Assembly: GCF_964355755.1 (NCBI RefSeq) | Contig: NC_092678.1 | Span: 22,734,365-22,798,364, forward strand | Source: Antedon mediterranea | Taxonomy: Eukaryota; Echinodermata; Crinoidea; Comatulida; Antedonidae | Reading direction: 5' to 3' | DNA length: 64,000 nucleotides | Part shown: positions 3,083-54,977 of the stretch, in pieces | Position numbering within the stretch: the first letter of the stretch is position 1 | Layout: each line of letters starts with the position of its first letter | The notes under the pieces: generated by a model | The model's database searches: none | What the model saw: only the letters and a program-made list of their open reading frames with translations | What the model was told of the DNA's origin: nothing | Made by a program: the position numbers and the translations under genes

Positions 3083-5929
3083 CTAATCAAATAAATGAAA
3101 TGATAAAATCGAATGTATCCTCGGCCGGTTACGTAATATATATAAAAGAAGATAATAACACGTTATCAGACTTAGAAACGCTATTTTGTGATTATATATA
3201 GAACTTTCTAAAAACAAGTTCAGTCGATGTTTATTTCGTTTTTGTATTATACAACTGTGATAAGGCCTAAGGTCCAATGACTGTCCTTTCAATGTTATAC
3301 TACTGTTTGTTCGTGTGATAACCATTGATTTGAATAATAATAATTTATCATTAATATCATACAAGTAATTTCCATCAAGAGATATTAAATCAACTTTAAT
3401 TCCCTTTCCAGAATATCCTTTTAGCATGCCTATAACATTATAATTTACTAATTTACAGTAATTCATAGAAAGGCGTTTTAAGTTTGGGAATTTAATAAAT
3501 ATATTAGCTAATGTACTTTCGTTGATTGATGATAGGTAGACAAAATCTAAATTAAGAAATTTCCATTTAAATCTGTAACGCTTAGGTGATATTAACAGAT
3601 CGTGTAATTGTTGGGCTGATAAAGAATGAAGAAACCAAGAAAATCCATAGAATGTATCAGTTACATCAGATACCAATAATGAATTGATAAGATTCGCAAG
3701 CAATTCGCTATCAAGATTTGAAAGATCATTTTTCTCTAAATTGATAAAATTCTCTTTTGACTCTAAATAGCTTTATCTACTTCATTCAGCATATCAGCTA
3801 TTTGGGCGCTTGATAAAGAACAATTATATAAAAAAAACATTTCTAAGTCTTTATAAACATTTAAAAAATGACCTAATAAAGCTCCGTTGATGTTTGACAA
3901 ATTATTGTTCCCAAGATGAAACGAACGCAAGTTAGCAAATGTTTTACCGTCTTTACATTCTGTCAGCATTGAGTTAATAAGTGAACTGTGTGATGCACCC
4001 TTTGAGTCCCTCGAGAAACGTATCAATAGATTTCTTAGGTTTGGAAAGTTTTGAAATAATTTACACATGCGTGAGCCAGTATGACGCCTGTATAAAAAGC
4101 GTGGATCATCTTCAATAAACATAAAAGAAGTTATTTCTTCGCCTAAATTATATTTCTTCCATTCAATCGAAAGAATCTCAAGGGCCTTATCACCATGTTT
4201 TTCAATTAGTTTGATCAAATATCCATCCCGATTATATTGGGTTAGGCCTACTGGTGGTATGGTGTCAGCACTATATAATTGTAATATTATTGAATATTGA
4301 GCTATAAGGCTGCACATACATTCACAAGATTCATTATACTCCATTAAAATTGAAGACATCATTCTTGTTATGTTATTACTATCTTTTGTAAGTCTTTCAT
4401 AAAATACCTTCAGTAATTCTATTAAATGCAAATTGTCGTCACAAACAAATTTTCTAAATGAATCTCTTAAAGCTTTAACGTGTATTTTCATTTCTGGTGA
4501 GATTTGTTTATCCAGTAATGTTAATACCTTTTCCTGGTATTTTTCACTTACATGTATGAAATATTTGGAAAAAGAATAATAATTAGAGGCCCTATTTACC
4601 AACCAGTGTTTCATGAGTTTGTCTGCATCGGGACCTAGAAAATTAATAGTAAAAACTGTTACCATTGGTAAAAGCGGATGAAGCCTTATTATCTCGCATT
4701 CTAATGAATCTAACATTTCAATTTTATTAGAGAAGTAAAATCCGGCTAGTGCCTCTGACAATAACCTATGTGGACTTCTGTAAGTCTCTACAAAACTATC
4801 CTGAACAGTAGAAGTATCTTTGTAAACAAATCCTAATTTTAGTGATAAGTCAACTAAAGTTTCATTTTTAACTACAGAATTTAAGTCAGTTTTAGTAAAA
4901 TGAAGTAACATTCTTTTTAAACCAATGTAACTAATTTCTCCTAATATTATAATTGCGTTTTTATAATCTGTGGGAATGTTGTCAAAGTCTGCTATCGCTT
5001 TTGTAGTAGGTTCATCCCTTCTGTTAATGTACTGATTTAAAATGTGCGGAAAATTTCTTCAAACAAATGTTGAAGATTATTGGGAATCACTTGCTCGTGT
5101 TCCCACACAACACACATTTTAAGTAAAAGAAATGGGGATGAAAATAGTTCAAACATGTATTTGTGATTACCGCCCCAACTACTCACATCAACTGAATCAA
5201 GATTAAATTCACTAATCAATAATTGACCCAATTTAGTCCTTCCAATAGATTTGAAATACCTCTTGATATATGGTTTTATGTTCTTTATGTCAAATCCTTC
5301 TACTTTTACACGTATGTCATAATATTTATGTAAACTTTCAGTAAAACCTGGTCGCGAAGTAAGAATAACTGTGCTGTCTTCCAGTTCTTTACTTTTTAAT
5401 ATCAGTGGAATATCAACTCCAGAATTTAACTCATCTAATCCATCTATCAGAAAAACTAACTCTCTGTCGTGATCCTCTATAAACATTTTTATAATTGTTT
5501 TATTAATATGGAGACCTGTTTTTTTACGAAAACGTATTAGATTCACTTCATCAACTATTGTATCTGTGATTGTTTGTCCTTCTTTGATGTCCCTGAGGTT
5601 TACGGAAAATAATATTTTACCAGCAAACGTACTATCAGAATTTGTCGCCCAGTTATAAGATATATATTTAAGCAATGTTGTCTTACAAATTCCCCCATTT
5701 CCAGTAATCAATACCTTACATGAGTCTCTGGACTTTATAATACACAATAATTCTAGTAAAGATGTGTGCTTTTGTTCTCCCTTTTGTGTACTGCTGATAT
5801 ATAGCTCTGGATCGGTAAAGATTTGCGAAATATTATGATAGTTATCTTCTCTGAACGTGGGTGGTCTTATAAATGGATCTTTGAATGTTTTTCTCTGTTC
5901 TCCTGATAAGAAGTTTCGAATAAGCTCAT
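3083..5929 (-). pseudogene. NLR-1 NACHT-LRR exon, frameshifted
   Basis: Large last exon of an NLR gene, read on the minus strand from an acceptor (tttatttcag) at 5929. It encodes the NACHT ATPase (Walker A region about 5682-5712, Walker B LVFLIDGLDEL, sensor ILTSRPG), a helical region with FLGPDADKLMKHWLVNR, then LRRs with FPNLRNLLI and FPNLKRLSM, and a C-terminal hydrophobic stretch. Two single-base losses relative to paralogs break the frame, near 5040 and 3770. Walker A reads GNGGICKT, with Cys replacing the last glycine of GxxGxGK[ST]. Together these argue for a pseudogene, though assembly error cannot be excluded for the indels. NLRs of this kind act as nucleotide-switched immune sensors. 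Confidence 0.8.
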
Positions 5930-6073: not shown

Positions 6074-6172
6074 CTTCTGTTAATATGTGATCTGAAAATG
6101 TGTTCGCAAAAACTTGGAATAAGTATGAGAGTACGACGGCTAAGATGACAACAATAAATGCAAAGACCATCG
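6074..6172 (-). CDS. NLR-1 transmembrane exon
   Basis: A 99-nt exon between acceptor ttaactttag and donor cagaag then gtaatt, phase 1 at both ends. It encodes AMVFAFIVVILAVVLSYLF followed by a polar tail ending in LTEG. This is a single strongly hydrophobic helix of about 18-20 residues, placed between the DED exon and the NACHT exon. The same exon is found in NLR-2, -3 and -4. Confidence 0.7.
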
Positions 6173-6393: not shown

Positions 6394-6432
6394 CGATACG
6401 TGTAGTTGGTTTAGATTTAGATTTCCGGTTAC
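6394..6432 (-). CDS. NLR-1 basic linker exon
   Basis: A 39-nt phase-1 exon between ctacag and gtaagc encoding a Lys/Arg/Ser-rich stretch (GNRKSKSKP...). It lies directly before the transmembrane exon, so it would be the charged flank of the helix, likely on the cytosolic side. Confidence 0.6.
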
Positions 6433-6933: not shown

Positions 6934-7190
6934 CTGAAACAAAAAGAAATCAAAATATAATAGAAGTTTAAACTTAACCAACTAACTAAAAACAGGAACA
7001 TTTTTAAATTATCTTAAATAAATTGCTGTTAACTCATTTGATGTTTTGCTTTTATATTTCAAATAAAATGCATACTATGTAGTTTAATCACCAAAGCAAA
7101 TACACTCAATTTGTAATTTGCAGCAATGTAATACCAATATTCAATACCTCCATGAGTTGGCCTTATTTCAAATGCTTTTGTTATGCATAC

Positions 7191-7698
7191 CTAGTAGAAT
7201 ACGCTGTGTCTTTTTGTTCAGAAGTTTAGCAAATATTTCAATTTGTTGTTGTGAATCCAGTTTTCCGGCTTTCTCAATGTGATATACAGAATCCCATATG
7301 TTGTCATAGTTGAAGGCACTCAGTTTGTAGAATCCAGTCACTCTTTTCAAGTCGTCATTTCCAACGTTTTTAAGCGCTCTAAACAGTGCTCTGCGGTATT
7401 CTGTTAGTAGGCTTACTGTCTCTGTGCATTGAATAATGTTCTTGTATTCTGTTATACAATCTCTTGCTGAGGCCAGATTAGTTACTTCAGCTATGTCGGA
7501 CAACAGTTCCACATTGTTTTTAGAAATAATTCCATGTTCAGTAAGTTTGTTAAACAGTTCTAAGGCTATGTGTGATTGATCTAGATCTCCAATAGGTAGA
7601 ATACCATATAGAAGCATTCTTAACTCTCGGACTGTTACACCAGCATAGTTTTCGCTAAGGGTTTGCAAAAAGATTTGAAATTTTAGATTTTCATCCAT
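7191..7698 (-). CDS. NLR-1 tandem DED-like exon
   Basis: N-terminal coding exon. Start chosen at the ATG near 7698 (MDENLKF), seven bases inside an acceptor-like tttatag, as in every paralog; a longer frame upstream depends on a TTG start and intron sequence. The exon ends after CTACTAG at donor gtatgc (phase 1). Residues about 5-80 match the death-effector-domain pattern (ELRMLLYGILPIGDLDQ, then LFNKLTEHGIIS.NNVELL). Residues about 100-168 form a second, weaker DED-like bundle. DEDs mediate homotypic interactions with FADD- and caspase-8-type proteins. This exon is intact although its downstream partner exon is broken. Confidence 0.75.
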
Positions 7699-8773
7699 TT
7701 TTAATCTATAAACGAAGAAGATAGCCCTAAAAATTAGATACACAATTTTCAAACCGAAAAAGAAAAGAAAAAACAATTCAGTGTAGGGTCTATATTAGGC
7801 CTAGGCAACATACAGTGGCTTATTTTGACTAGTTTTGAATTTTGATCGCACCATAATCGAATTTAGATCACATAAGCGAAAAGTGAGACTAACCAAACCA
7901 AAATATTATTAACATTGATTTAAGACATTCTAACAATTAATAAACGACAAAAATTATTATAGGATTATATGATATAACAAAGCAAGAATACTTATATTAC
8001 AATAGAGTAATTCAATATTAATTTAATATTATAATATTGCAAAAAATGTAGGCCTACTTAATACCAGCACCTTTTTCAATACTGTAGGCCTATAAAGTGT
8101 ATTTATTTATTCTAACTATGCATAGTCCCAAATCAGCATTATTCATTCAGTATTCAGTATTTTGTATTATTACTCTTACTATATTATTATTATTACTAAA
8201 ATGCTCACGGTTTGTTTGTGTTATTCCGTCTGCTTGCCTACTTCGTTAATAAGACAGTCCGCCATATTCGTCTTTTGTCGTTTTGTGACGTATCTATCCA
8301 CAGTTTCATAGATCGATAAATATAACAATGTAATACTTGATGCATAAAATATGAGCAACAGCGTCACGAAAGTAATTGTTAGAGTAGGCCTACAAGAATT
8401 ATATCAATAATTATGTTAATTGTAATATCTATATTTTGCCTACAAACTAAAATGATTTATAAGCACATTTATTAGGTGATCATTTAGAATAAAATGATCA
8501 CCTATTGTTGTTGATACAATAACAATAATAGTATGAAATCTTTAATATTATTTATTTCTTTCTGTACAGATTTTGTTTGTCAATTATCTCAAAAAGTTTA
8601 ATGTCAATAATCACAACAATTTCACAATATCTTTAAAATAATTAAATTTAGTCCTAGTTAGCTTTTCAGCGTGATCACTTCTCTGTGACGTCATTTATAC
8701 GCCATTTTGTGAAATCACATTATCAATCATATCTCCATAATTTATTATCACATATTAATGACATTTACTACTG
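7699..8773. other. Upstream region of NLR-1
   Basis: AT-rich, with scattered TAGGCCTA. One perfect TGACGTCA lies at 8686-8693, about 1 kb upstream of the start codon. The 5' untranslated exon implied by the acceptor at 7705 could not be located. Confidence 0.5.
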
Positions 8774-8914
8774 TAAACTTCAGGTCAAGGGTAAAAATAT
8801 TAGCTAATAAAACGCACGCGCACGTAGAGTCATGTGCGTAAAATCGCGCGTTAACATTTAAAAAGCTCAAAATTAAGTTTTTAGAGCATGAATTAGGCCA
8901 TTTGCGTGTTCTAA
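8774..8914. repeat. Short direct copy of dispersed repeat
   Basis: About 140 bases nearly identical to 9419-9556 in the same orientation (starting taaacttcaggtcaaggg). The two copies bracket an NLR gene fragment. Confidence 0.85.
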
Positions 8915-9418
8915 TGTCTCTGACGTTTACAAAAAATAATATTTTACTAGCAAACGTATCATAGAAATGTGTTGCCCAGTTATAAGATATATATTGAAGT
9001 AAGGTTGTCTTACCAATTCCCCCATTTCCAGTTATCAATACTTTAGGTGAGTCTCTGGAATTTATAATAGCCAATAATTCTTGTAATGATGTGTGATTTC
9101 TTTTATATTCTTCCTCTCTTGTACTGATATATAGTTCTGGATCGGTAAACATCTTTGAAATATCATATTTAGTATCTGCTCTCCATGTAGGTGGTCTTAT
9201 ATTTGTTTTTTTAAATTTGTATTTCTGTTCCGTTGTCATGTATTCCCAAATAAGCTCATCTGAAATCAGTTTGATTTGGTTGTTATAAACTAAGTTGTAT
9301 TCAATGCAAATTCCTAATTATAAATAAACCTATAATAATGAATATACCACAGTTTCCTTTTGTTAAGATGTGGTCTGAAAATTTATTCGCAAAAGTGTGG
9401 AGTAAGAATATGAGAATT
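8915..9418 (-). pseudogene. NLR fragment: partial TM and NACHT exons
   Basis: The minus strand carries the end of a transmembrane exon (about 9360-9418; ...FSDHILTK, with the donor GT lost), an intron, and the first about 110 codons of a NACHT exon with an intact Walker A (GNGGIGKTTLLQYIS, near 9009-9034). It breaks off after VNVRDIR. Both ends stop exactly at copies of a dispersed repeat, so the fragment was cut by repeat-related rearrangement. No DED exon or LRR part remains. Confidence 0.8.
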
Positions 9419-10175
9419 AAACTTCAGGTCAAGGGTAATAATATTAGCTAATAAAACGCACGCGCACGTAGAGTCATGTGCGTAAAATCGCGCGTTAACT
9501 TAAAAAGCTCAAAATTAAGTTTTTAGAGCATGAATTAGGCCATTTGCGTGTTCTAAAAAATTACTGCGCAAAAACACGTCTTTGCGCGCGCGATTCTTAG
9601 AAAGCGTAAAAAATAAAATTTGTACCATCCTTAGTACATTCACTGAATGTGAGTCCATTCGGACTTAAAATAGCGCTATACGAGGACGTTAAATATGGCA
9701 AAATGCGAAAATTGCATTTTATATATTTGTCAGGCATTTGTATGATTTGTTTTTATTTTTTTTATTTTTTTTTGAATGCGCATTGAGCACTCTTGAGTGG
9801 TATGTGCGCTATAAAAATCCTGTTATTATTATTATTATTATTAAAATTAATTTCACAAAGTGCTAAAAATTGTAAAAAATAAGGCATTTTTAAAATCAAA
9901 CTAACTCTTCAAAAGTTTCGTCGAAACTCGTTTTTTTAACTTATTCGGGAAGCCATTGAGTTGTAGATATGAATTAATGTACACATTTGACGTACACAAT
10001 TTTGTGACGTCATCAAATGGCCACTTGAATTTAAAAATTAGTAATTTTTATCTTTTTGTGTAGGTTATCACATTCAATAGAGCGCATCCCCGTTATTTGA
10101 GCCCGATTTTCGCTCAAATTTCAGTATGTGCTTGCTAAATTAATTATCTTTATCATGAGTTGCCACCATTTTCAT
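9419..10175. repeat. Dispersed repeat with GC-rich segments
   Basis: Begins with the sequence also at 8774-8914. It continues through cgcacgcgcacg and tttgcgcgcgcgat stretches, a segment cgcattgagcactcttgag ending in a TTA microsatellite (about 9822-9842), and a TGACGTCA (about 10006). No coding frame. It resembles an old non-coding interspersed repeat; class unknown. Confidence 0.5.
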
Positions 10176-11945: not shown

Positions 11946-14779
11946 CTAAAGATAAATAACATAAACAAGTTCTACCCATAAGAAAATATAAATGGCTAAA
12001 ATTGATAATAGAAAAAGTGAAATATATCCTCGTAATAATAGAAGAAAATAAGAAGATGTAGCTATAATTATTAAGTATATAGATATAAAAACTATAAGCC
12101 TATACAAAATATTTAAAAGACGAAATAAATGCTCTTTAAATATAGGTTTACATTTAGTTTCTATATACCAACTGTAATAGTTCAACTCTTCTATTTCTAA
12201 TGTTTTCTGATTCCATTCATCGTTTAAAACAAATGTGGGGATTAATGATGTACTGTAAATATTTGCAACGTCATTTCCATTGATAGATATCAGGTCACTT
12301 TTGATTATTATATTATTTTCATAACATTCACTTAGCATTTCATTAACAATAGTACCTGTTAAGTTACAATCACTCATAGAAAGACGGTATAAGTTTGGAA
12401 ATATAATCAATATATTAGCTAGTGTACTTCCGTTGATTGATGATAGGTCAATGCCATCCAAAATAAGATTATTCCATCTAAATCTATAACGACTAGGTGA
12501 TATTAAAAGATCGTGTAATTGTTTAGCTGACATATTATAATTACCCCAAGTTTGGCTTGGAGGGCCCAGCCGTGTGTCTAATAAATCGATAATGTTTCCA
12601 AGTAATTCGGTATCAATATCTGAAAGATCATTTCCTTTTAACTTGATAAGAGTTTCTTTTGACTTTAGATAGTTTATATCTACTTCATTAAACATGTCAA
12701 CTATTTGTTTGCTTGATAATTGAGAATTTGTCAAAGCGAAAGTTTCTAAATCTTTGGAAGTGTTCAATATACGACCTAACAGAGATCCATTTATAAACTC
12801 CGGATAGTCGGTCACGAGACTAAAACTCTTCAATTTAACAAAAGCTTTACTATGTTCACATTCTTCTAACATTGTGTTAATATGTGAACCACCTATATTA
12901 TATTCCATATAACGTATGTGGAGCTGTTTTAAATTTGGAAAGTTTTGAATTAATTTGCAAATCTGTGAGTCAATTGTAGTGTTATATTCGAAGCAACCAA
13001 TAAACCACCAAAACATGTCTACTTCCTCATCAAAACGGTATTTTTTCCATTCGTCTGAGAGGATTTTAAGAGCTTTATTTCCCCATTTATGAAGTAATTG
13101 TATCATACACCTGTTTCGATCTTGATACAAATATTGTAATAAGATTTCAACGTGTGCTACTAACCTACATACATTACCAGATGACTCAATGTTTGATTTT
13201 TCTATGATTGATAATATAGTTTCAGATATTACATTTCCCCCCATGTTTGTAAAGGCATATGCAAACAATTTCATTTGTTGGAATAAGTGAAAATCTTTTT
13301 TATATAGCATCTTTAAAGAATTTTTAAAATGTTCAACATCTATTTTCATTTCTGGTGACATTTGTTTATCCAATGATTTCACTACATTTTGTTCGTGCTC
13401 GCTATTTACATATTTAAAATATACTAAAAAAGAGTAATAATTTGATAGCCTATTTTCCAACCAGTGCTTCATTAATTTGTCTGCATTAGGACCTAGAAAA
13501 CTGATAGTGAAAACTCTTACCATGTGTAAATACTCGCTCGTTCTTATTTTTTTGCATTCCTCGAAATCTAACTTCTCAATATTATTTGACAAGTAAAGCC
13601 CGGCCAATGCCTCTGACAATAACTTATGTGGAAATTCGTACGTCTCCGTAAAATCATCCTGAACAGGAGGTGGATATTGTTGGTCAACAAATCCTATTTT
13701 CAGCGATAATTTAACTAAAGTTGTATTTCGTATAAGTTTATTCAATTGTTTATCTGTAAAAGTGAGTATATTTTGCTGTAAACCAATGTAACTAATATTT
13801 CCTAATAACAAAATTGAATTTTTGTATTCATCCGGAATGTCTTCAAAGTCTGCCGCTGGTTTAATAGTAGGATTATCACTTCTGTTAATGTACTGATTAA
13901 TAATCACACAAAAAATTTCTTTTAAAAATGTATGATAATCCTCAGGGATTACTTGTTTGTGTTCCCACACAACACACATTTTTAGTAACAAATACGGGAA
14001 TGGAAACATTTGTTCAAATATGTTTTTGTAGTCACCACCCCAATCAAATGTATTACCTGAATTAAGTTTAAGTAGGTTAATCAATGACTGACCTATTTCA
14101 TGCTTTCCAATGATTTCAAAGTATCTGAAAATAAAATGCTTTATGTTTTTTTCTGCAAATCCTTTTAAGTTTACAATTATATCATAATGTTTATGTAAAT
14201 TTGCTGTAAAACCCGGCCGTGAAGTTAGAATAACTGTGGTGTCCTCTAGTTCATCTCGTTTTAACATCTTTGGAATATCCACCCCGGATTGTAATTCATC
14301 TAATCCATCAATCAGAACAACTAATTCTCTATCGTATTTCTGAATAAAAGTGTGTATAGATGTTTTATTTACACAGGGATCTGTTTTTGCATTAACCTTA
14401 AAGTTATTAACGATTATATCTGTGATGTGTTGACCTGAATTGATGTCTCTTATGTTTACGAGAAATAATATTTTACCAGCAAACGTGGTATCGTTATTTG
14501 TCGCCCAGTTATAACATATATATCGAAGTAATGCTGTCTTACCAATTCCTCCTATCCCTACCATTAATACTTTACATGGATTTCTGGCTTTTATCTGATC
14601 TAATAATTCTTCAAGTGATGTAAAAGTATCTTCTTCCTCTTTTTTAATATATAGGTTTGGATCGGTAAACATCTTTGAAATATCATACTCTTTATCTGCA
14701 CTCCATGTAGGTGGTCTTATATTTGGATTTTTTAATTTCTTTTTTTGTTCTGCTGTTATGAAGTCTCGAATATGCTCAT
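11946..14779 (-). CDS. NLR-2 NACHT-LRR exon with C-terminal TM
   Basis: Intact large exon, about 944 codons, from acceptor cattgcag (14779, phase 1) to the stop. Order: a conserved lead-in (EHIRDFITAEQ, RPPTW, MFTDP); NACHT with Walker A GIGGIGKTALL (near 14545), Walker B LVVLIDGLDEL, sensor ILTSRPG; a helical region with FLGPNADKLMKHWLENR; LRR-type repeats (FPNLKQLHI, FPNLYRLSM); then a C-terminal tail with about two hydrophobic segments (IVFISIYLIIIATSSYFLLL and ISLFLLSILAIYIFLWV). Joined to its four upstream exons it gives an in-frame protein of about 1182 residues. It is the best-preserved full gene in the window. An immune-receptor role is inferred from family and cluster. Confidence 0.85.
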
Positions 14780-14905
14780 CTGCAATGAGTTCAATTAACA
14801 AAAAGAGATAGATTGTTTTAGTATTATCTCTAAAAATATATGAAATCAGTAATCAATTATATAGACGTATGGCAGCGTCCAAATTATAGAAATAATCCTA
14901 ATTAC

Positions 14906-15007
14906 CTTCTGACAATTTGTGGTCTGAAAATTTGTTTGCAAAAACATTGAATGAGTATGAGGTTATGACAGCCAAGATGACAACAATAAATGCAAAGACC
15001 ATCCACG
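14906..15007 (-). CDS. NLR-2 transmembrane exon
   Basis: A 102-nt phase-1 exon (acceptor ctttatag, donor cagaag then gtaatt) encoding AWMVFAFIVVILAVITSYSF and a polar end LSEG. One transmembrane helix is predicted between linker and NACHT. Confidence 0.7.
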
Positions 15008-15178
15008 CTATAAAGAAAAAAAAACATTACAATTTATTTCTTGCCTTTATTTATTTATTTATTATACATGTGTTGACTAAAGTGCCCAGTTTAGTTATTT
15101 GTTTTTTTGTTTTTATTTGTTTTGAGAATAAGACTTAATTCATAATTGGGAATAGATGTTGTAATTGTTAATACTTAC

Positions 15179-15229
15179 CGTTACGTCGATTTAATTTAGA
15201 TTTGAATGTGCTGTTAGATCGAGGTGACA
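15179..15229 (-). CDS. NLR-2 basic linker exon
   Basis: A 51-nt phase-1 exon (acceptor cctacag, donor gtaagt) encoding VSPRSNSTFKSKLNRRN, rich in Arg/Lys, next to the transmembrane exon. Confidence 0.6.
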
Positions 15230-15598
15230 CTGTAGGTTAGAAACAAATTAAATAATCTTCAAAAAGTCCATTTAACACAACTACTAATAGTTGACTCTTA
15301 ATTTATTGTGAATGATTTGTCATTTTAACCCATTTTTTGCTGTACAGTTTTTTCAGGGAAATAATTTTTGGTCAAAGTGAATAGCTATTATGTAACATTA
15401 AAATAGCATATTAAATAACAAAAAAAAATTTTTTTCAGGGTACAATATATCTTTAATAATACCTACATAATATATCAATCCTCAATTCTTTATGTATTAA
15501 TGATTGGTACAATATTGTAACCATTTCCATTGCATCCTAACCCCTCTCTGCATTTGTTAGTTATAATTCATTCAGTCACTGGCTAGTCTGGTACATAC

Positions 15599-15658
15599 CT
15601 GTGGGAACTACCATTGTTGTAGCTGAAGCCGATATCAATGTAGGCTGATAAGGTGTTA
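15599..15658 (-). CDS. NLR-2 Ser/Thr linker exon
   Basis: A 60-nt phase-1 exon (acceptor tttacag, donor acag then gtatgt) encoding VTPYQPTLISASATTMVVPT. It matches the 60-nt exons of NLR-3 and NLR-4. The 75-nt linker exon of NLR-1, -3 and -4 is missing here. Confidence 0.65.
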
Positions 15659-16003
15659 CTGTAAACGTAGATTCATATGCACAAAAAAAATAAGATATAA
15701 GTTTAAACTTCACCAAAATGTTACTAAAATTGAAATATACAGTATTTCCAGAAACTACAAAGACCCCATAAAAATCTTAAATAATTTAGTTTGAATGAAT
15801 ATCTTTGTTATTTTGAAATTATTATTTTCAAATAAATACCATGGCCTTTGATATAGTTTAGTTAGAGGAAATACGCTCAAGCCATCATTGATTTTGCATG
15901 ATGTAATACACGGTAAATCCGTGTTTAATAATCAATATTGTATTGTTTTCTATTTAATGAGCAAATAAAAAAGAAGCTCTCAATCGAGATGTGGTAGGCA
16001 TAC

Positions 16004-16505
16004 CTAGTAGAATATATTGTGCCACATTGTTCAGTAGTTTTGCAAATGTTTCAATTTCTTGTTGTGAATTTAGTTTTCCGTCTTTTTCAATGTGATATAC
16101 AACATCCCAAATGTTGTCGTATTTGAAGGCACTCAGTTGATAGAAATCAATCACAGACCTTAAGTCATCTTTGTCTACGTTAATAAGCGTTGTAAACAGT
16201 GCTCTGCGGTAGTTGGTTATTATTGTCTCTGATGTGTTATTACTGCATTGTACAGTATTCTTGTATTCTGTTATACAATTTATCGCTGATTCCTGATTAG
16301 TTACTTCAGCAATCTCCAACAACAGCCTCACATCAGTTTTTGAGATAAATCGATAGCGAGTAAGAGTATTAAATAGGCCCATGGCTGACTGATCTAGACC
16401 GCCAATAGGTATAATACCACATAGAAGCATTCTTAACTTCCGAACTTCAGTGCCAGCATAGTGTTTGCTAAGGTTTTGTAGAAACATTTGGTATTTATCG
16501 TCCAT
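16004..16505 (-). CDS. NLR-2 tandem DED-like exon
   Basis: First coding exon, 167 codons plus one base. It starts at MDDKYQMF just inside acceptor ttttttcag and ends before donor gtatgc. The first DED-like domain (LRMLLCGIIPIGGLDQS, LFNTLTRYRFIS) is at residues about 5-78. The second (YRRALFTTLINVDKDDL, IWDVVYHIEKDGKL) is at about 100-165. The DED match is by pattern; a related death-fold cannot be excluded. With NLR-2's other exons it forms a complete gene. Confidence 0.8.
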
Positions 16506-24652: not shown

Positions 24653-24889
24653 CTAATGATAAATAAGTTCTACCCATAAGAAAATATAAATGGTTAAAAT
24701 CAATAATTGAAAAAGCGAAATGTATCTTTGTGAGATTAGAAGAAAATAAGTAGATGTAGCTATAATTATTAAATATATTAAAACTATAGGCCTATACAAA
24801 ATATTTAAAAGACGAAATAAATGCGCTTTAAATATAGGTTTACATTTAGTTTCATATACCAACTGTAATAGTTCAACTCTTCTATTTCT
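24653..24889 (-). pseudogene. NLR-3 C-terminal TM remnant
   Basis: Encodes the hydrophobic tail of the NLR exon (KCKPIFKAHLFRLLNILY, then YISLFQLLILTIYIFLWVEL), closest to NLR-2. It is separated from the rest of the exon by the LINE at 24890-27143, and a one-base loss near 24858 breaks the frame even without the LINE. Confidence 0.8.
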
Positions 24890-27511: not shown

Positions 27512-29703
27512 TCATACAGTTTGTATAATGTCTAATTTTTTCTTTACTTCGGTATCAATATATGAAAGATCAATTCCTTCTAAATTGATAAAAATGTCTG
27601 ATGATGTTAGATAGTTTATATCTAGTTCATTAAACATGTCACCTATTTGTTTGCTTGATAATTGAGAATTCGCCACATTGAAAGTTTCTAAATCTTTGGA
27701 AGTGTTTAATATACGACCTAATAGAGATCCATTGATAAACTCCGGATATTTGGTCTCGAGACTAAAACTCTTCAATTTAACAAAAGCTTTACTATGTTCA
27801 CATTCTTCTAACATTGTGTTAATATGTGAACCACTTATATTATATTCCATATAACGTATGTGGAGCTCTTTTAAATTTGGAAAATTTTGAATTAATTTGC
27901 AAATCTGTGAGTCAATTGTAGTGTTATATTCGAAGGAATCAATAGTCCACCAAAAATTATGTACTTCCTCACCAAAACGATATTTTTTCCATTCGTCTGA
28001 GAGGATTTTAAGAGCTTTATCACCCCATTTATGAAGTAATTGTATCATACACCTACTGTTTCGACTTTGATCCAGATATCGTAATAAGATATGAACGTGT
28101 GCTACTAACCTACATACTTTACCAGATGACTCAATGTTTGATTCTTCTATGATTGATAATATAGTTTTAAATATTACCCGCTTGTTTGTAAAATCTGCAA
28201 ACAATTTCATTTGTTGGAATAAGTGCAAATCTTTTTCATATAGCAACTTAAAAGAATTTTTAAAATTGTCAACATGCATTTTCATTTCTGATGACATATG
28301 TTTATCCAATGACTTCACTACATTTTGTTCGTGCTCTTGATTTACATATTTAAAATATTCTAAAAAAGAGTAATAATTTGAGAGCCTGTTTACCAACCAG
28401 TGTTTCATTAATTTATCTGCATTAGGACCTAGAAAACTAATAGTGAAAACTCTTGCCATGTGTAAATATTCGCTCGTCCTTAAGTTCTCGCATTCCTCAG
28501 ATGTTAAAGTATCAATTTTGTTAGACAAGTAAAACCCGGCTAGCGCTTGTGACCATAACTTATGTGGACATCTGTAAGTCTCTACTGAATCATCCTGAAC
28601 AGTAGGGTCATCTTTGTAAATAAATCCTAATTTCAACGATAAGTCAACCAAAGTTTCATTTCTTACTAATTCAAGTAATTGTATTTTAGTAAAATGAAGT
28701 TTATTTGTTTGTAAACCAATGTAACTTATTTTTCCTAATATTAAAATTGCATTTTTATAGTCAGTTGAAATGTTGTCAAAGTTAGATATCCGTTTTTGCT
28801 CATTACTTCTGTTAATGTACTGATTTAAAATGGAACGGAAGATTTCTTTCAAAAAACGTTGAAAATCTTTTGTAATTATTTGTTCGTGTTGCCATATAAC
28901 ACACATTTTAAGTAATAAAAATGGGGATGAAAACAGTTCAAATACATTTTTGTGATCACCACCCCAATTATTTTTCACTGAATCAAGTTTGAATTCGTTA
29001 ATCAATAACTGGCCCAGATTAGAGTTGTTTACAAAATTGAAATGTCTATTTATATATGGTTTTATGTTTTCTGTAGAGAATCCTTCTACTTTTACATATA
29101 CATCAAAATGCCTACGTACACTTTCAGTAAAACCCGGTCGTGAAGTCAGAATAACTGTGCTGTCTTCCAATTCTTCTCTTTTTAGTATCAGTTGAATATC
29201 TACCCCAGATGTTAACTCATCTAATCCATCTATCAGAAGAACTAAATCTTTGTCGTATGTCTCTACAAAAGTTCTTATAATAGTTTCATTTACATAGATA
29301 CCTGTTTTTTTACGAGATTTCTTCAGCTTAACTGAATCAACAATTAAATCTGTGATTGTTTGTCCTTCTTTGATGTCTCTGAGGTTTACAAGAAATAATA
29401 TTTTACCAGCAAACGTACTATCGTTATTTTTCGCCCAGTTATAAGATAAATATTGAAGCAAGGTTGTCTTACCAATTCCACCATTTCCTACCATTAATAC
29501 TTTACAGGAGTCTTTAGACTTTATAATATCCAATAATTCTTGTAATGATGCGTCGACTTTTCTTTTTTCTATATGTAGTACTGGATCTGTGAACATCTGT
29601 GAAATGTCATACGGATGATTTTCTCCCCATGTTGGTGGTATTATATTTGGATCTTCGAATTTTTTTCTCTGTTCTGCTGTTATGAAGTTTCGAATAAGCT
29701 GAT
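27512..29703 (-). pseudogene. NLR-3 NACHT-LRR exon, proximal part
   Basis: From acceptor catttcag (29703, phase 1) through the conserved lead-in (QLIRNFITAEQ, MFTDP), NACHT with Walker A GNGGIGKTTLLQYLS (near 29469-29495), Walker B LVLLIDGLDEL, sensor ILTSRPG, and the helical and first LRR parts, open for about 730 codons. It stops after LDIIQTV because of an indel that paralog NLR-4 lacks. Together with the LINE and distal frameshifts the gene is a 3' pseudogene, but a truncated DED-TM-NACHT protein of about 993 residues could still be made. Very close to NLR-4. Confidence 0.8.
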
Positions 29704-29824: not shown

Positions 29825-29929
29825 CTTCTGTTAATTCGCAATCTGAAAACCTGTTTGCAAAAACGTGGAATAAGTATGAGAGTATGACAGCTGAGATGAC
29901 AACAATAAATGCAAAGACCATCGCTAAAG
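29825..29929 (-). CDS. NLR-3 transmembrane exon
   Basis: A 105-nt phase-1 exon (acceptor tgttttag, donor gaag then gtaatg) encoding ALAMVFAFIVVISAVILSY and a polar end ELTEG; one predicted membrane helix. Confidence 0.7.
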
Positions 29930-30959: not shown

Positions 30960-31311
30960 CTGTAAGTTATATTCATATGCACAAAAGAAATGAAGATATA
31001 AGTTTAAACTTCACCAAAATGTTACTAAAATTGAAATATACAGTATTTCCAGAAACTATAAAGACCCCATGAAAATCTTAAATAATTTAGTTTGAATTAA
31101 TATCTTTGTTGTTTTGAAATTATTATTTTCAAATAAATGCCATGGCCTTTGATATAGTTTAGTTGTTTAGAGGAAATACGCTCAAGCCATCATTGATTTT
31201 GCATGATGTACTACACGGTAAATCCGTGATTAATAATAAATATTATTATTTTCTAAAACAAATTTAATGAGCAAATAAAAAAGAATCTCAATCGAGATGT
31301 GGTAGGCATAC

Positions 31312-31822
31312 CCAGTAGAATATGTTGTGCTACATTGTTTAGTAGTTTTGCAAATATTTCAATTTGTTCTCGTGAATCCAAGTTTCCGTCTTTCTCAATG
31401 TGATATACAACATCCCAAATGTTGTCGTAGTTGAAGGCACTCAGCTTGTAGAAATCAATAACATTTTGTAAGTCATTTTTGTCTACGTTAATAAGCGTTG
31501 TAAACAGTGCTCTGCGGTAGTTGGTTATTATTGTCTCTGATGTGTTATTACTGCATTGTACAGTATTCTTGTATTCTGTTGTACAATTTATCGCTGATTC
31601 CTGATTAGTTACTTCAGCAATGTCCAACAACAGCCTCACATCAGTTTTTGAGATAAATCGATTGCGAGTAAGAGTATTAAATAGGCCCATGGCTGACTGA
31701 TCTAGACCGCCAATAGGTATAATACCACATAGAAGCATTCTTAACTTCCTAACGTCCACGCCAGCATAGGATTTGCTAAGTTTTTCCAGAAACATTTGGT
31801 ATTTAACATCATTTTCGTCCAT
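31312..31822 (-). CDS. NLR-3 tandem DED-like exon
   Basis: 170 codons plus one base, from MDENDVKYQMF to donor gtatgc. DED-like domain 1 at about 8-78 (KLRMLLCGIIPIGGLDQS, LFNTLTRNRFIS, DVRLLLDIAEV); domain 2 at about 102-168 (NYRRALFTTL, IWDVVYHIEKDGNL). One or two residues differ from NLR-4. Intact although the gene's 3' half is broken. Confidence 0.8.
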
Positions 31823-40996: not shown

Positions 40997-43554
40997 TTAG
41001 TTTACATACACCAACTCTTCTATTTCAAATGTTTTGTGATTCCCTTCATTTCTTAAAACAAATTTTGTTATTAATGATGTTTTGTCAATCTTCGTAACGT
41101 CATTTCCATTGATAGATATCATGTCACTTTTGATCATTATATGATTTTTATAACATTCTCTTAGCATTTTATTTACAATAGTACCTGTTAAATTACAATC
41201 ATTCATAGAAAGATGTTTTAAGTTTGGAAATATAATAAATATATTAGCTAGTGTACTTCCGTTGAATGATGATAGGTTGAAGCCATCAAAATTAAGATTA
41301 TCCCATCTTAACCTATAACGACTAGGTGATATTAAAAGATCGTGTAATTGTTTAACTGACATATCACTTGGTATAATGTCTAATTTTTTCTTTACTTCGG
41401 TATCAATATCTGAAAGATCAATTCCTTCTAAGTTGATAAAAATGTCTTTTGGCTTTAGATAGTTTATATCTACTTCATTAAACATGTCACCTATTTGTTT
41501 GCTTGATAATCGAGAATTGGCCACTTTGAAAGTTTCTAAATCTTTGGAAGTGTTTAATATACGACCTAATAGAGATCCATTGATAAACTCCGGATTTTTG
41601 GTGTCGAGTCTAAAACTCTTCAATTTAACAAAAGCTTTACTATGTTCACATTCTTCTAACATTGTGTTAATATGTGAACCACCTATATTACAACTCATAT
41701 AACGTATGTTGAGCTCTCGTAAATTTGGAAAGTTTTGAATTAATTTACACATCTGTGAGTCAATTGTAGTGTTATATTCGAAGCAATCAATAGTCCACCA
41801 AAAATTATGTACTTCCTCACCAAAACGATATTTTTTCCATTCGTCTGAGAGGATTTTAAGAGCTTTATCACCCCATTTATGAAGTAATTGTATCAAAAAG
41901 ATGCTTCGATCTGCAAACTTATACAGATATCCTAATAAGATTTCAACGTGTGCTACTAACCTACATACATTATCAGATGACTCAATGTTTGATTCTTCTA
42001 TGATTGATATAGTTTTAAATATTCCTATTTCCCCCTTGTTTGTAAAATCATCTGCAAACAATTTCATTTGTTGAAATAAGTGCAAATCTTTTTCATATAA
42101 CAACTTAAAAGAATTTTTAAAATTGTCAACATGCATTTTCATTTCTGATGACATATGTTTATCCAATGATGTCAATACTTTTTGTTCGTGCTCTTGATTT
42201 ACATATTTAAAATACTCTAAAAAAGAGTAATAATTTGAGAGCCTATTTACCAACCAGTGTTTTATTAATTTATCTGCATTAGGACCTAGAAAACTAATAG
42301 TGAAAACTCTTGCCATGTGTAAATATTCGCTCGTCCTTAAGTTCTCGCATTCCTCAGATGTTAAAGTATCAATTTTGTTAGACAAGTAAAACCCGGCTAG
42401 CGCTTGTGACCATAACTTATGTGGACATCTGTAAGTCTCTACAGAATCATCCTGAACAGTAGGGTCATCTTTGTAAACAAATCCTATTTTCAACGATAAG
42501 TCAGCCAAAGTTTCATTTCTTACTAGTTCAAGTAATTGTATTTTAGTAAAATGAAGTTTATTTGTTTGTAAACCAATGTAACTTATTTTTCCTAATATTA
42601 AAATTGCATTTTTATAGTCAGTTGAAATGTTGTCAAAGTTGGATATCCGTTTTTGCTCATTACTTCTGTTAATGTACTGATTTAAAATGGAACGGAAGAT
42701 TTCTTTCAAAAAACGTTGAAAATCTTTTGTAATTATTTGTTCGTGTTGCCATATAACACACATTTTAAGTAATAAAAATGGGGATGAAAACAGTTCAAAT
42801 ACATTTTTGTGATCACCACCCCAATTATTTTTCACTGAATCAAGTTTGAATTCGTCAATCAATAACTGGCCCAGATTAGAGTTGAAATTGAAATGTCTAT
42901 TTATATATGGTTTTATGTTTTCTGTAGAGAATCCTTCTACTTTTACATATACATCAAAATGCCTACGTACACTTTCAGTAAAACCCGGTCGTGAAGTCAG
43001 AATAACTGTGCTGTCTTCCAATTCTTCTCTTTTTAGTATCAGTAGAATATCTACCCCAGATGTTAACTCATCTAATCCATCTATCAGAAGAACTAAATCT
43101 TTGTCGTATGTCTCTACAAAAGTTCTTATAATAGTTTCATTTACATAGATACCTGTTTTTTTACGAGATTTCTTCAGCTTAACTGAATCAACAATTAAAT
43201 CTGTGATTGTTTGTCCTTCTTTGATGTCTCTGAGGTTTACAAGAAATAATATTTTACCAGCAAACGTACTATCGTTATTTGTCGCCCAGTTATAAGATAA
43301 ATATTGAAGCAAGGTTGTCTTACCAATTCCACCATTTCCTACCATTAATACTTTACAGGAGTCTTTAGACTTTATAATATCCAATAATTCTTGTAATGAT
43401 GCGTCGACTTTTCTTTTTTCTATATGTAGTACTGGATCTGTGAACATCTGTGAAATGTCATACGGATGATTTTCTCCCCATGTTGGTGGTATTATATTTG
43501 GGTCTTCGAATTTTTTTCTCTGTTCTGCTGTTATGAAGTTTCGAATAAGCTGAT
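40997..43554 (-). CDS. NLR-4 NACHT-LRR exon, early stop before TM
   Basis: Large exon of about 852 codons from acceptor catttcag (43554). NACHT: Walker A GNGGIGKTTLLQYLS (near 43320-43346), Walker B LVLLIDGLDEL, sensor ILTSRPG. Helical part with FLGPNADKLIKHWLVNR. LRRs with FPNLRELNI and FPNLKHLSM. It ends EIEELVYVN at a TAA. Directly after this stop the same frame runs on for about 60 codons (KPIFKSHLF..., LWVGLVIAIYLQS), ending exactly as NLR-5 does, so the C-terminal membrane segments were lost by a stop. Its NACHT half is nearly identical to NLR-3 but its extreme 3' end resembles NLR-5, which suggests a chimera. The predicted full product is about 1115 residues. Confidence 0.85.
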
Positions 43555-43675: not shown

Positions 43676-43780
43676 CTTCTGTTAATTCGCAATCTGAAAA
43701 CCTGTTTGCAAAAACGTGGAATAAGTATGAGAGTATGACAGCTGAGATGACAACAATAAATGCAAAGACCATCGCTAAAG
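43676..43780 (-). CDS. NLR-4 transmembrane exon
   Basis: A 105-nt phase-1 exon identical in sense to that of NLR-3 (ALAMVFAFIVVISAVILSY). With the C-terminal segments lost, this is the only predicted membrane anchor of NLR-4. Confidence 0.7.
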
Positions 43781-44812: not shown

Positions 44813-45164
44813 CTGTAAGTTATATTCATATGCACAAAAGAAATGAAGATATAAGTTTAAACTTCACCAAAATGTTACTAAAATTGAAATATACAGTATT
44901 TCCAGAAACTATAAAGACCCCATGAAAATCTTAAATAATTTAGTTTGAATTAATATCTTTGTTATTTTGAAATTATTATTTTCAAATAAATGCCATGGCC
45001 TTTGATATAGTTTAGTTGTTTAGAGGAAATACGCTCAAGCCATCATTGATTTTGCATGATGTACTACACGGTAAATCCGTGATTAATAATAAATATTATT
45101 ATTTTCTAAAACAAATTTAATGAGCAAATAAAAAAGAATCTCAATCGAGATGTGGTAGGCATAC

Positions 45165-45675
45165 CCAGTAGAATATGTTGTGCTACATTGTTTAGTAGTT
45201 TTGCAAATATTTCAATTTGTTCTCGTGAATCCAAGTTTCCGTTTTTCTCAATGTGATATACAACATCCCAAATGTTGTCGTAGTTGAAGGCACACAGCTT
45301 GTAGAAATCAATAACATTTTGTAAGTCATTTTTGTCTACGTTAATAAGCGTTGTAAACAGTGCTCTGCGGTAGTTGGTTATTATTGTCTCTGATGTGTTA
45401 TTACTGCATTGTACAGTATTCTTGTATTCTGTTGTACAATTTATCGCTGATTCCTGATTAGTTACTTCAGCAATGTCCAACAACAGCCTCACATCAGTTT
45501 TTGAGATAAATCGATTGCGAGTAAGAGTATTAAATAGGCCCATGGCTGACTGATCTAGACCGCCAATAGGTATAATACCACATAGAAGCATTCTTAACTT
45601 CCTAACGTCCACGCCAGCATAGGATTTGCTAAGTTTTTCCAGAAACATTTGGTATTTAACATCATTTTCGTCCAT
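45165..45675 (-). CDS. NLR-4 tandem DED-like exon
   Basis: 170 codons plus one base, from MDENDVKYQMF to donor gtatgc, with the same two DED-like domains as NLR-3. It differs from NLR-3 by only a few residues (for example YKLCAF for YKLSAF), which fits a recent duplication. Confidence 0.82.
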
Positions 45676-47698: not shown

Positions 47699-47810
47699 TA
47701 GTGTAACAGTCGGCACAGTGGACGTGCAAAAAACTCCCGTATTAAATGAGGAACGTTGAAAAGACAATAAAAATAAGTCTACAATTACTATTACCGTATA
47801 GTATGTACCA

Positions 47811-51648: not shown

Positions 51649-54647
51649 TTATGACTGAAGGTAAATAGCAATAACAAGACCTACCCATAAGCAAATATAA
51701 ATGTTTAAAATTAATAATAGAAAAAGTGAAATGTATCCTCGTAAGAATAGAAGAAAAGTAGAAGATGTTATAGCTATAATTATAATTATTAAAACTTTAT
51801 ATACAATATTTAAAGGACGAAATAAATGCGCTTTAAATATAGGTATACTAGTTTCTATATACCAACTGTAATAGTTCAAATCTTCTATTTCTAATGTTTT
51901 GTGATTCCTTGGCATTACTAAAGTTTTGTGATTCCTTGGCATTACTAAAGTTTTGTGATTCTTTGGCATTACTAACATTTTGTGATTCTCTTTAATTGCT
52001 AAAGTTTTGTGATTCCGTTCAATTGATAAAGTTTTGTGATTCCGTTCAATTGATAAAGTATTGTGATTCTCTTCAGTAGCTAAAATAAATGTTGGGATTA
52101 ATGATGTACTGTCAATCTTCGTATGGTCATTTCCATTGATAGATATTAGGTCACTTTTGATTATTATATTATTTTCATAACATCCACTTAGCATTTCCTT
52201 AACAATAATACCTGTTAAATTACAATTATTCATAGAAATACGTCTTAAGTTTGGAAATATAATAAATATATTAGCTAATGTACTTCCATTGATCGATGAT
52301 AGGTCAATGCCATCCAAAAAAAGACTATCCCATCTAAATCTATAACCACTAGGTGATATTAAAATATCGTGTAATTGTTTAGAAGACATACTATAATTAC
52401 CCCAAGTTTGGCTTTGAGGGCCCTGCCGTGTTTCTAATAAATCGATAATGTTTCCAAGTAATTCGGTATCAATATCTGAAAGAACATTTCTTTGTAATTC
52501 GATAAGATTTTGTTTTGACTTTAAATAGTTTATATCTACTTCATTAAATATGTCGACTATTTGTTTGCTTGATAATTGAGAATTCGCCACATTGAAATAT
52601 GTTAAATCTTTGGAAGTGTTTAATATACGACCTAATAGAGATCCATTGATAAACTCCGGATATTTGGTCTCGAGACTAAAACGCTTTAATTTAACCAAAG
52701 TTTTACTATGTTCACATTCTTCTAACATTGTGTTAATATTTGAACCACCTATATTATAACCCATATAACGTATGTGGAGCCCTTCTAAATTTGGAAAGTT
52801 TTGAATTATTTTGCAAATCCGTGAGTCAATAGTAGTGTTATATACGATGTGATCAATAAACCACAAAAATGTATCTACTTCCTCATCAAAACGGTATCTT
52901 TTCCATTCGTCTAAGAGGATTTTAAAAGCTTTATCACCCCATTTATTAAATAATTGTGTCATATACCAACTGTTTAGATTTTTAGACAGATATCGTAATA
53001 AAATATGAACGTGTGCTACTAACCTACATACATTATCAGATGACTCAATGTTTGATTCTTCTATGATTGATTTCATAGTTATATAATATATTCCTGCTCT
53101 CTCTAAGTTTGTAAAGTCATCTGCAAACAATTTCATTTGTTGGAATAAGTGCAAATCTTTTTCATATAGGGTCTTTAAAGAATTTTTAAAATTGTCAACA
53201 TGTATTTTCATTTCTGGTTGCATATGTTTATCCAATGACTTCACTACATTTTGTTCGTGCTCTTGACTTACATATTTAAAATATTCTAAAAAAGAGTAAT
53301 AATTTGAGAGCCTATTCACCAACCAGTGCTTCATTAATTTGTCTGCATTAGGACCTAGAAAACTGATAATGAAAACTGTTACCATGTGTAAATACTTGTT
53401 CGTCCTTAAGTTCTCGCATTCCTCAGATGTTAAAGTATCCCTTTTTTCCGACAAGTAAAACCCGGCTAGTGCCTCTGACAATAACTTATGTGGACATCTG
53501 TAAGTCTCCACAGAATCATCCTGAACAGTAGGGTCATCTTTGTAAACAAATCCTAATTCCAACGATAAGTCAACTAAAGTTTCATTTTTTACTTGTTCAT
53601 TTAACTTTCTTTTAGTAAAAAGAAGTAAGTTGTTATGTAAGCCAATGTAACTAATTTGCCCTAATATTACAATTGCATTTTTGTAGTCAGTCAAAATGTG
53701 GTCAAATTCTGGTATTGCTGTAGTAGTAGACTTGTTACTCCTGTTAATGTTCTGTTTTAAAATCAGACAAAATATTTCTTTAAAAAAATGCTGAAAATCT
53801 TTGGGAATTGTTTGTTTGTGTTGCCACACAGTACACATTTTAAGTAACAAAAACGGGGATGAAAGTAGTTGAAATATTTCCTTATGATCACCACCCCAGT
53901 ATATAGATTTAGAATCAAGTTTAAATTGATCTATTAATAACTGACCCAGTTTATAATTTCCAATATAATCAAAATATTTGTTTATATATGGCTTTATATT
54001 TTCTGCACTGAATCCCTTTATATTAACAAGTACATCAAAATGTTTTTCTACGCTATCCACTGTAGGACCAGGTCGTGAAGTAACAATGACCGTGCAATCT
54101 TCTAGTTCTTCACGTTTTATTATCATTGGAATATCTAGCCCAGAATTTAACTCATCATATCCATCCAGCAGAACTACACATTCTCGGTCATGTTTCTCTA
54201 TAAAAGTTTTTATAGATGTATTACTTACACGGGGATCTGTTTTTGCATTCACCTTAACCCTATTTATGATCATATCAGTGATGGTTTGACCTGCCTTGAT
54301 GTCTCTTACGTTTACAAGAAATAATATTTTACCAGCAAACGTATCATCGGAATCTATCGCCCAGTTATAAGATATGAATTGAAGCAAGGTTGTCTTACCA
54401 ATTCCTCCATTTCCTACCATTAATACTTTAGGTGAGTCTTTTGACTTTATAATACCCAATAATTCTTGCAAAGATGTGGGACTTTTTATTTTTTCTTCCT
54501 TTGTAGTAGTTTTTAAAACTGGATCTGTAAACATCTTGGAAATATCAACATAGTGTCCAAAATGTTCGGTCCACGTCGGTGGTCTCAATGTTGGGTCTTT
54601 TAATTTATTTGTCTGTGTTGCTGTTAAGTAGTTTCGAATAATATCAT
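51649..54647 (-). CDS. NLR-5 NACHT-LRR exon with 9-residue repeats and C-terminal TM
   Basis: Intact exon of about 999 codons from acceptor gatttcag (54647, phase 1). NACHT: Walker A GNGGIGKTTLLQFIS (near 54394-54420), Walker B VVLLDGYDELNSG, sensor IVTSRPG. Helical part with FLGPNADKLMKHWLVNR. LRRs with FPNLEGLHI and FPNLRRISM. Before the tail lies an array of seven 9-residue units of type NHKTLVMPR / NHKTLSIER; other NLRs here have a single such unit. The C-terminus has two hydrophobic segments and ends LWVGLVIAIYLQS. With its upstream exons the product is about 1241 residues. It is diverged from NLR-3 and NLR-4 in NACHT. Confidence 0.85.
51883..52076 (-). repeat. 27-bp coding minisatellite in NLR-5
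   Basis: About seven tandem 27-base units, each encoding a 9-residue NHK-x-L-x-x-x-x unit, in frame within the exon. The three left-most units are nearly identical, pointing to recent expansion. Confidence 0.85.
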
Positions 54648-54911: not shown

Positions 54912-54977
54912 CATTATCCCCTTCTGTTAATTTGTGGTTTGTAGCTAGAATGACGGCAATGACCAGTACTAAAGTTG
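54912..54977 (-). CDS. NLR-5 transmembrane exon
   Basis: A 66-nt phase-1 exon (acceptor ttattatag, donor aatg then gtatgt) encoding ATLVLVIAVILATNHKLTEG. The helix is completed by hydrophobic residues (AIPLL) at the end of the preceding exon. The KLTEG end is shared with the other NLRs. Confidence 0.65.

Follow-up and report, generated by a model that had tools for sequence, protein, structure and literature searches.

NLRs are textbook cytosolic sensors, and the question raised by the locus considered here is whether a family of them has been placed on a membrane. The window analyzed (64,000 nucleotides (nt), positions 22734365 to 22798364 of C9 in the 354 Mb genome of Antedon mediterranea) carries several related genes, numbered 1 to 7, and gene 3, on the minus strand, is taken as the reference. 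The genes of this family probably encode membrane-tethered NLRs, in which a tandem DED, a linker, a basic patch, a helix, a NACHT-LRR body and a hydrophobic tail follow one another. Attachment to a membrane is suggested by hydrophobicity alone, and from the helix and the tail the proteins are predicted to depart from the soluble, cytosolic state.

Exon structure and domains of gene 3

Read by eye, five minus-strand exons of gene 3 splice into 1182 codons plus a stop, with no interruption. Every intron is GT-AG and phase 1 throughout, so that each internal exon is symmetric (phase 1-1). Exon 1 (502 nt, 16004..16505) runs from an ATG to the phase-1 donor GTATGC and encodes the putative tandem DED module; it is supported by a sub-threshold Pfam match, by a splice model and by a profile of 32 exons. 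Exon 2 (60 nt, 15599..15658) is the Ser/Thr/Pro linker VTPYQPTLISASATTMVVPT, exon 3 (51 nt, 15179..15229) is the basic exon VSPRSNSTFKSKLNRRN, and exon 4 (102 nt, 14906..15007), found through a hydrophobic-exon search and supported by the insertion scale and by conservation, is the putative transmembrane-helix exon AWMVFAFIVVILAVITSYSFNVFANKFSDHKLSE. Exon 5 (2834 nt, 11946..14779) encodes NACHT, with the P-loop GIGGIGKT and the Walker B motif LVVLIDGLDE, followed by a putative LRR region and the C-terminal tail. The tail (11949..12119) consists of two hydrophobic segments flanking RGY and has relatives at 24659-24853, 40814-40996 and 51658-51876. The in-frame join of DED, linkers, basic patch, helix and NACHT-LRR had been put forward in the original prediction, and its coordinates proved exact. 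The splice model, trained on DED and NACHT exons, recovered the end of exon 1, exon 3 and the start of exon 5. Linkers like exon 2 occur also in genes 4 and 5 and in loci L005, L006 and L010, while NRK-type basic counterparts of exon 3 were found in genes 1, 4 and 5 and in L001, L006, L010 and L011. In L001 and L011 the acceptor of the basic exon reads AT, not AG, which makes its use there doubtful.

Concerning the domains, recognition by Pfam had been proposed as a check, and it was clear for NACHT (63.3 bits versus a cut-off of 26.7) but fell short for the other two: exon 1 of gene 3 scored 27.4 bits as a DED, under the gathering score of 35.9, and the LRRs stayed below threshold, with 11–18 bits in those window genes that match. 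When the first exons were aligned, 29 out of 32 matched DED at E ≤ 0.01. The profile made from these 32 homologous first exons of the same genome led to caspase-8, c-FLIP, FADD and PEA-15 in the PDB, caspase-8 at 2e-6, with profile positions 10-122 aligned to caspase-8 residues 5-118. The structure model of the DED exon (168 amino acids) contains 10 predicted helices at a predicted local distance difference test score (pLDDT) of only 45. The model of exon 5 is also poor (pLDDT 50); its LRR region is formed by repeating strand-helix units, with ten-residue mean pLDDT values up to 86 within residues 600-730. A Foldseek search with this model gave NLR chains, or assemblies holding NLR chains, in the first 49 of the best 50 rows, counting the oocyte-lattice and subcortical maternal complex rows, which we take to be NLR chains.

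Pairing of the DED and NACHT exons

Genome-wide, there are at least 103 NACHT matches and at least 150 DED-exon matches. Among the 103 NACHT matches listed, a DED exon on the same strand lies up to 10 kb upstream in 33 and downstream in 6, and on the opposite strand in none. This bears out the earlier proposal that the DED and NACHT exons belong together, in the same phase and order. Ownership of the DED exon by a different gene was considered, and is disfavored by these strand and order counts and by the identical phase-1 ends in control families. Forty genomic stretches were fetched which, together with the window genes, provided 29 NACHT loci of the gene 3 clade versus 17 loci of other DED-NACHT families, used as controls. 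Both sets were chosen from the match lists and do not include all matches; L008, where two DED exons occur with no NACHT, belongs to neither. Within the stretches examined, the DED first exon is present in 21 of the 29 clade loci, gene 6 and L003 among them. The NACHT exons of 28 loci, gene 2 being omitted, were examined for motifs and tail: the P-loop is present in 27 and the Walker B pattern in 25.

The DED first exons show a further regularity. In 18 of the 28 listed, an AG stands seven nt before the ATG (e.g., window 16506-16533), and in 12 of those 18 the AG-to-ATG spacer is exactly ATT(C/A)AAA, found on both C9 and C3. The shared AG suggests that these genes receive one and the same 5′ leader by splicing, either in cis or in trans.

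A hydrophobic exon between DED and NACHT

The helix exon was sought as a hydrophobic exon bounded by AG and GT, of phase 1-1, at most 450 nt upstream of NACHT (the setting quoted below). It appeared in 20/29 clade loci versus 0/17 control-family loci. At the same setting, the clade gave 0/29 in phase 0, 2/29 in phase 2 and 0/29 on the reverse complement, the corresponding values for the control families being 0/17, 2/17 and 0/17. Across six settings, phase 1 varied from 16 to 22 out of 29 in the clade and was always 0/17 in the controls, phase 2 gave 2/29 each time in the clade and 0–2/17 in the controls, and the reverse complement reached 2/29 at the loosest, 700-nt setting. With the helix exon of gene 3 as query, nine matches were obtained, every one in the C9 cluster at 22.62-22.85 Mb.

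Among six close loci, mean pairwise identity was 0.894 for the helix exon versus 0.576 and 0.621 for the flanking introns, with a shuffled baseline of 0.491, and the exon exceeded each flank in 13 of the 15 pairs. In the distant copies L013, L016, L018 and L022 the helix sequence has diverged and the hydrophobicity has been kept. On an insertion scale, 19-residue sums were calculated for 21 hand-picked helix exons, omitting those of gene 5 (identical to gene 4) and L009 (near L005). The sum was below zero in 15 of the 21, including genes 1, 3 and 4, whereas the lowest values elsewhere were +5.1 in 20 NACHT-LRR bodies and +6.5 in 32 DED exons. The helix had been reported earlier in five genes of the window; it is convincing in four of them (genes 1, 3, 4 and 5) and not in gene 6 (+7.1), and the frame is intact in two of the five.

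These results support a hydrophobic exon between DED and NACHT as a conserved feature of one clade, and the controls indicate that it is not due to chance. An artefact, that is, an AT-rich intron which happens to be open and hydrophobic, could be imagined from the composition of the window (31% G+C), since T-rich DNA encodes F, L and I, and from the phase-2 control (2/29 and 2/17, at the loosest settings). Such an origin by chance is nevertheless extremely unlikely in view of the phase, strand and family controls: phase 0, the reverse strand and phase 1 of the other families all gave zero at the quoted setting, and the conservation is specific to the exon.

C-terminal tail and membrane sidedness

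Of the 28 NACHT exons examined, nine remain open beyond 900 amino acids and reach a stop, and all nine carry hydrophobic tail segments; L019 (1032 amino acids) reaches the end of its stretch and was excluded from this count. Eight of the nine tails have insertion sums below zero, and that of L010 is +0.06. Most copies had originally been said to end in about two such segments; in gene 5 the frame stops before the tail, and gene 4 is interrupted by a LINE-like frame.

As regards orientation, charges around the helix were counted in six genes in which a basic exon had been located; gene 5 and L006 were omitted, while L001 and L011 were included despite their AT acceptor. In 6/6 genes the 15 residues before the helix contain 4–5 Lys/Arg and no acid, and those after it contain 0–2 Lys/Arg and 2–5 acids. 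By the positive-inside rule, the basic flank of a membrane helix is on the cytosolic side. The basic bias before the helix thus suggests that the DED is cytosolic, and would place NACHT-LRR on the opposite side if the helix spans the membrane. On the other hand, the retention of the P-loop in 27/28 exons, together with the type of LRR, favors a cytosolic NACHT. N-glycosylation sequons were not depleted in the first 860 residues of the 10 exons counted (9–15 observed versus shuffled means of 8.0–10.3). Judged from the sequence, then, NACHT-LRR may face either side of the membrane.

Origin of the helix exon

In a tree of NACHT sequences, the 29 clade rows are grouped with support 100/98, apart from the 17 controls, and all 24 rows labelled as helix-bearing sit inside that clade. 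The labels count L023, the degenerate gene 2 and L009 as helix-bearing on homology or weak candidates. The distribution of the helix label takes four changes on the tree, at least three of them forced, as compared with a shuffled mean of 15.6. The simplest reading is one basal gain with later losses or missed exons: the anchor would have been gained once at the base of the clade, when a symmetric phase-1 exon entered an existing DED-NACHT gene, and would then have spread via tandem duplication, with some losses afterwards.

Other insertions occur at the same place. In 12 of the 17 control loci, the splice model sets hydrophilic phase-1 linkers in the interval between DED and NACHT (four gave no model and one no output). 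In L020 and L021 (C8:14063000-14070200 and 24549900-24558800), a two-exon FN3-like domain lies between DED and NACHT, with 23.3 and 24.0 bits against a gathering score of 25. The interval between DED and NACHT thus seems to accept phase-1 cassettes of several kinds, namely linkers, the basic exon, the helix and FN3.

Alternative explanations

Several observations weigh against membrane-tethered NLRs as the interpretation of these genes. The splice model, trained on soluble exons, left out the helix exon of gene 3 (and exon 2), which was picked up instead by the search for hydrophobic exons, although for L004, L007b and L012 the exon that the same model selected was hydrophobic. The helices of gene 6 and L004 (+7.9) are too short on the insertion scale. 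At the quoted setting, no helix exon was found in 9/29 clade loci: in L006 and L012 it stands at a greater distance from NACHT (537 and 478 nt upstream), in L023 the homologous stretch has no scored GT donor, and L015, L017, L019, L020, L021 and the degenerate gene 2 are left without one. The dN/dS ratio (nonsynonymous to synonymous rates) of the helix exon in the six close loci is only 0.59, with P < 0.05 by neutral simulation in just 4 of 15 pairs, so that the evidence for selection comes from the exon/intron contrast and from the distant copies. The 29 loci are not independent, near-copies being genes 4/5, L001/L011, L005/L009, L004/gene 6 and L022/L023, and many copies are broken. Also to be counted here are the low confidence of the structure models of the DED exon and of exon 5, and the tree, which does not support a single origin without losses. 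Should the membrane separate NACHT from DED, supplying the P-loop with nucleotide would be a problem, and the charges flanking the tail, counted in genes 3 and 6 and inspected by eye in the other tails, do not decide the side.

Three other explanations accept the exon and differ in what it does. A helix that does not span the membrane, being monotopic, dipping, or exposed only on activation, would leave both DED and NACHT in the cytosol, in principle like plant ZAR1, in which an N-terminal helix inserts into the membrane. This is doubtful. It would fit the P-loop retention, an LRR region in which strands and helices are predicted to alternate, as they do in cytosolic NLRs, and the basic residues that precede both the first helix (gene 3) and the tail (genes 3 and 6). 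However, a stretch of some 20 strongly hydrophobic residues, flanked by a one-sided charge bias, is what a single-pass anchor ordinarily looks like. A soluble NLR in which the helix is a mostly skipped symmetric cassette, the anchored form being a minor or conditional isoform, is an unlikely account, for which three features speak: the internal exons are of phase 1-1; none of the 17 control loci has a helix exon, and the splice model gives 12 of them hydrophilic linker exons in that position; and the helix donors are GTAATT/G/A in 11/11 loci listed, not the optimal GTAAGT. What it leaves unexplained is a helix exon conserved relative to its introns, present in most clade loci and accompanied by a hydrophobic tail. 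As a transcript skipping a symmetric phase 1-1 exon stays in frame, such skipping could also coexist with a membrane isoform.

Translation might also start at the helix exon, producing a NACHT-LRR protein without DED, targeted to the endoplasmic reticulum by the helix as signal peptide or signal anchor. In genes 1, 3, 4 and 5 and in L001, L002, L003, L006, L007, L007b, L010, L011 and L014, a Met lies no further than residue five of the helix exon, an acceptor immediately precedes the exon, and the AG before the ATG in 18/28 DED first exons would make a leader spliced just upstream of the start usual in this family; VFA-N, with which the helix ends, is similar to a signal-peptidase site. Against these points, there is no basic n-region, the upstream basic exon is sensible only if read together with the helix, and the Met is absent from other copies. 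An alternative start is very unlikely.

Proposed mechanism

If the proteins are membrane-tethered, the NACHT-LRR sensor would be held at both ends, by the helix exon and by the hydrophobic C-terminal tail. Ligand sensing by the LRR could then lead NACHT to bind nucleotide and oligomerize in the membrane, and the oligomers would cluster the tandem DEDs on the cytosolic face, so that a FADD/caspase-8-type DED filament might be seeded at the membrane, with cell death or an NF-kB-type response as output. Where the symmetric helix exon is skipped, a soluble isoform might be made. The sequence itself shows the exon order, the phases, a hydrophobicity kept in most loci of the clade, a P-loop in most copies and the basic bias before the helix; insertion into a membrane, the membrane concerned, the cytosolic side of the DED, oligomerization and caspase recruitment are inferred, and the mechanism is built on known NLR and DED biology.

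A bolder and rather unlikely form of the mechanism is an inside-out NLR, similar to a death receptor. Its NACHT-LRR sensor would be extracytosolic, either lumenal or at the cell surface, with membrane helices at both ends; extracytosolic ATP, for instance released by injury, would serve the nucleotide switch, and the cytosolic tandem DEDs would directly recruit caspase-8-type enzymes, with no separate receptor chain.

Comparison with known systems

Known NLRs matched by the exon 5 model in the PDB are NLRP7, NLRC4, NOD2 and NLRP9; in the ten best Foldseek rows, 840–990 columns align to NLR chains with E values from 4e-12 to 2e-11; identity is 12–14%, and the TM-scores of 0.17–0.30 are low because the model is poor. 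To our knowledge, none of these four proteins has such helices.

The original statement that animal NLRs are generally soluble was too broad, as published exceptions exist in sea cucumber, sea anemones and sponges. In the sea cucumber Apostichopus japonicus, membrane localization of AjNLRC4 was shown by antibody (PMC8699970). This echinoderm membrane NLR has a helix at 483-503, about 100 residues before NACHT at 600-757 (about 82 residues in gene 3, counted over the exons), but its N-terminus carries immunoglobulin (Ig) domains and not a DED, it has no LRR, and a second predicted helix (776-795) comes directly after NACHT. The Ig domains are described as outside and NACHT as inside. The clade studied here shares the helix N-terminal to NACHT; its first exon encodes a DED, and no Ig ectodomain was encountered, no dedicated search for Ig exons having been made. 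For a second A. japonicus membrane NLR, AjNLR-new, the authors claim a NACHT outside the cell and an N-terminal module inside it, the sidedness that the flank charges suggest here, but its Ig module lies between two helices, it acts in phagocytosis via a microtubule-severing protein, and the accessible text names no DED (PMC13133943). A sea-cucumber genome is also described as containing NLRs with death or DED domains, and some that carry different domains, Ig V-set among them.

Sea-anemone NLRs resemble the present proteins in having NACHT-LRR with predicted transmembrane segments clustered N-terminally. They differ in being multi-pass, with 3–5 N-terminal transmembrane domains, and in belonging to one anthozoan clade, no DED being named in the text available (PMC5094078); in gene 3 the stretch from DED to NACHT includes a single hydrophobic exon. 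Putative membrane-bound NLRs of the sponge Dysidea avara are architectures with predicted transmembrane domains (PMC12909245). In the DED-NACHT genes of amphioxus, sea urchin and Nematostella, the DED is directly joined to NACHT; these were termed intracellular receptors, and the available passages name no transmembrane segment with NACHT (PMC2575513). In a search of open-licence articles, no architecture combining DED, transmembrane segment, NACHT and LRR was found. Membrane NLRs and DED-NACHT proteins are each known separately, and their union with LRR appears to be the new element. If the interpretation is true, this family kept the NLR engine and yet moved it to the membrane by acquiring a single symmetric exon, a step that can be identified; along with the membrane NLRs of sea cucumber, it turns the side on which NACHT lies, and its use of ATP there, into directly testable questions.

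Other genes of the window

All other NACHT genes of the window also lie on the minus strand, and the full NACHT-LRR-tail frame is kept in genes 3 and 6 only. Gene 1 has a tandem-DED exon (7189..7698), the basic exon GNRKSKSKPTTRI (6394..6432), the helix exon AMVFAFIVVILAVVLSYLFQVFANTFSDHILTE (6074..6172) and a NACHT-LRR exon (3083..5929) that is frame-shifted, with an altered P-loop, so that it is likely a pseudogene. Gene 2 (8748..9423), a copy missed by the earlier analysis, consists of a truncated NACHT and, at 9355-9423, the degenerate remains of a helix. Gene 4 comprises a tandem-DED exon (31310..31822), a helix exon (29825..29923) and a NACHT exon (27512..29703) that is stopped and followed by an insertion resembling, by eye, a long interspersed nuclear element (LINE), with a tail remnant at 24659-24853. 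Gene 5 arose recently by duplication of gene 4; the two have the same helix, in helix exons 13851 bp apart. In gene 5 the tandem-DED exon is at 45163..45675, its helix exon at 43676..43774 and its NACHT-LRR exon at 40997..43554, where the frame ends just before the tail-like sequence at 40814-40996. Gene 6 is formed by a divergent DED exon (57402..57968; 31.2 bits), the hydrophobic exon ATLVLVIAVILATNHKLTEGDN (54912..54977), too short to span by the insertion scale, and a NACHT-LRR exon with its hydrophobic tail intact (51649..54647). Gene 7 is a partial NACHT-LRR exon (61806..63719) which runs beyond the end of the window.

Between the LRR and the tail of gene 6 (window 51881-52084) there is an in-frame 27-bp tandem repeat of about seven copies, each unit giving nine codons (NHKTL...); the tail region of L002 contains a different, protein-level repeat. 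A 5S rRNA gene, matched at full length (71.2 bits, model positions 1-120), occupies window 56395-56514 on the plus strand, between the DED and helix exons of gene 6 and opposite to them. Outside the window, L001 and L011 (C9:22619000 and 22850600) are about 230 kb apart and near-identical in helix and tail, a likeness that suggests a recent larger duplication or conversion. On C2, at 7.83-8.21 Mb, 12 homeodomains were picked out, one of them inverted; they range from Hox1-like to Hox11/13-like, with Hox4-like and Hox6-like members, a set that suggests an ambulacrarian and perhaps a crinoid, whereas a COX1 search gave no match. LINE-like open frames were recognized by eye at window 24659-27442, 38491-39519 and 49294-50091; one of them breaks gene 4 and the other two are intergenic, on the plus strand. 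Finally, long arrays of the 16/50-bp unit TACCACTGTAGGCCTA are found near duplicated genes, at window 33963-35591, 47806-48276 and 59818-60179.

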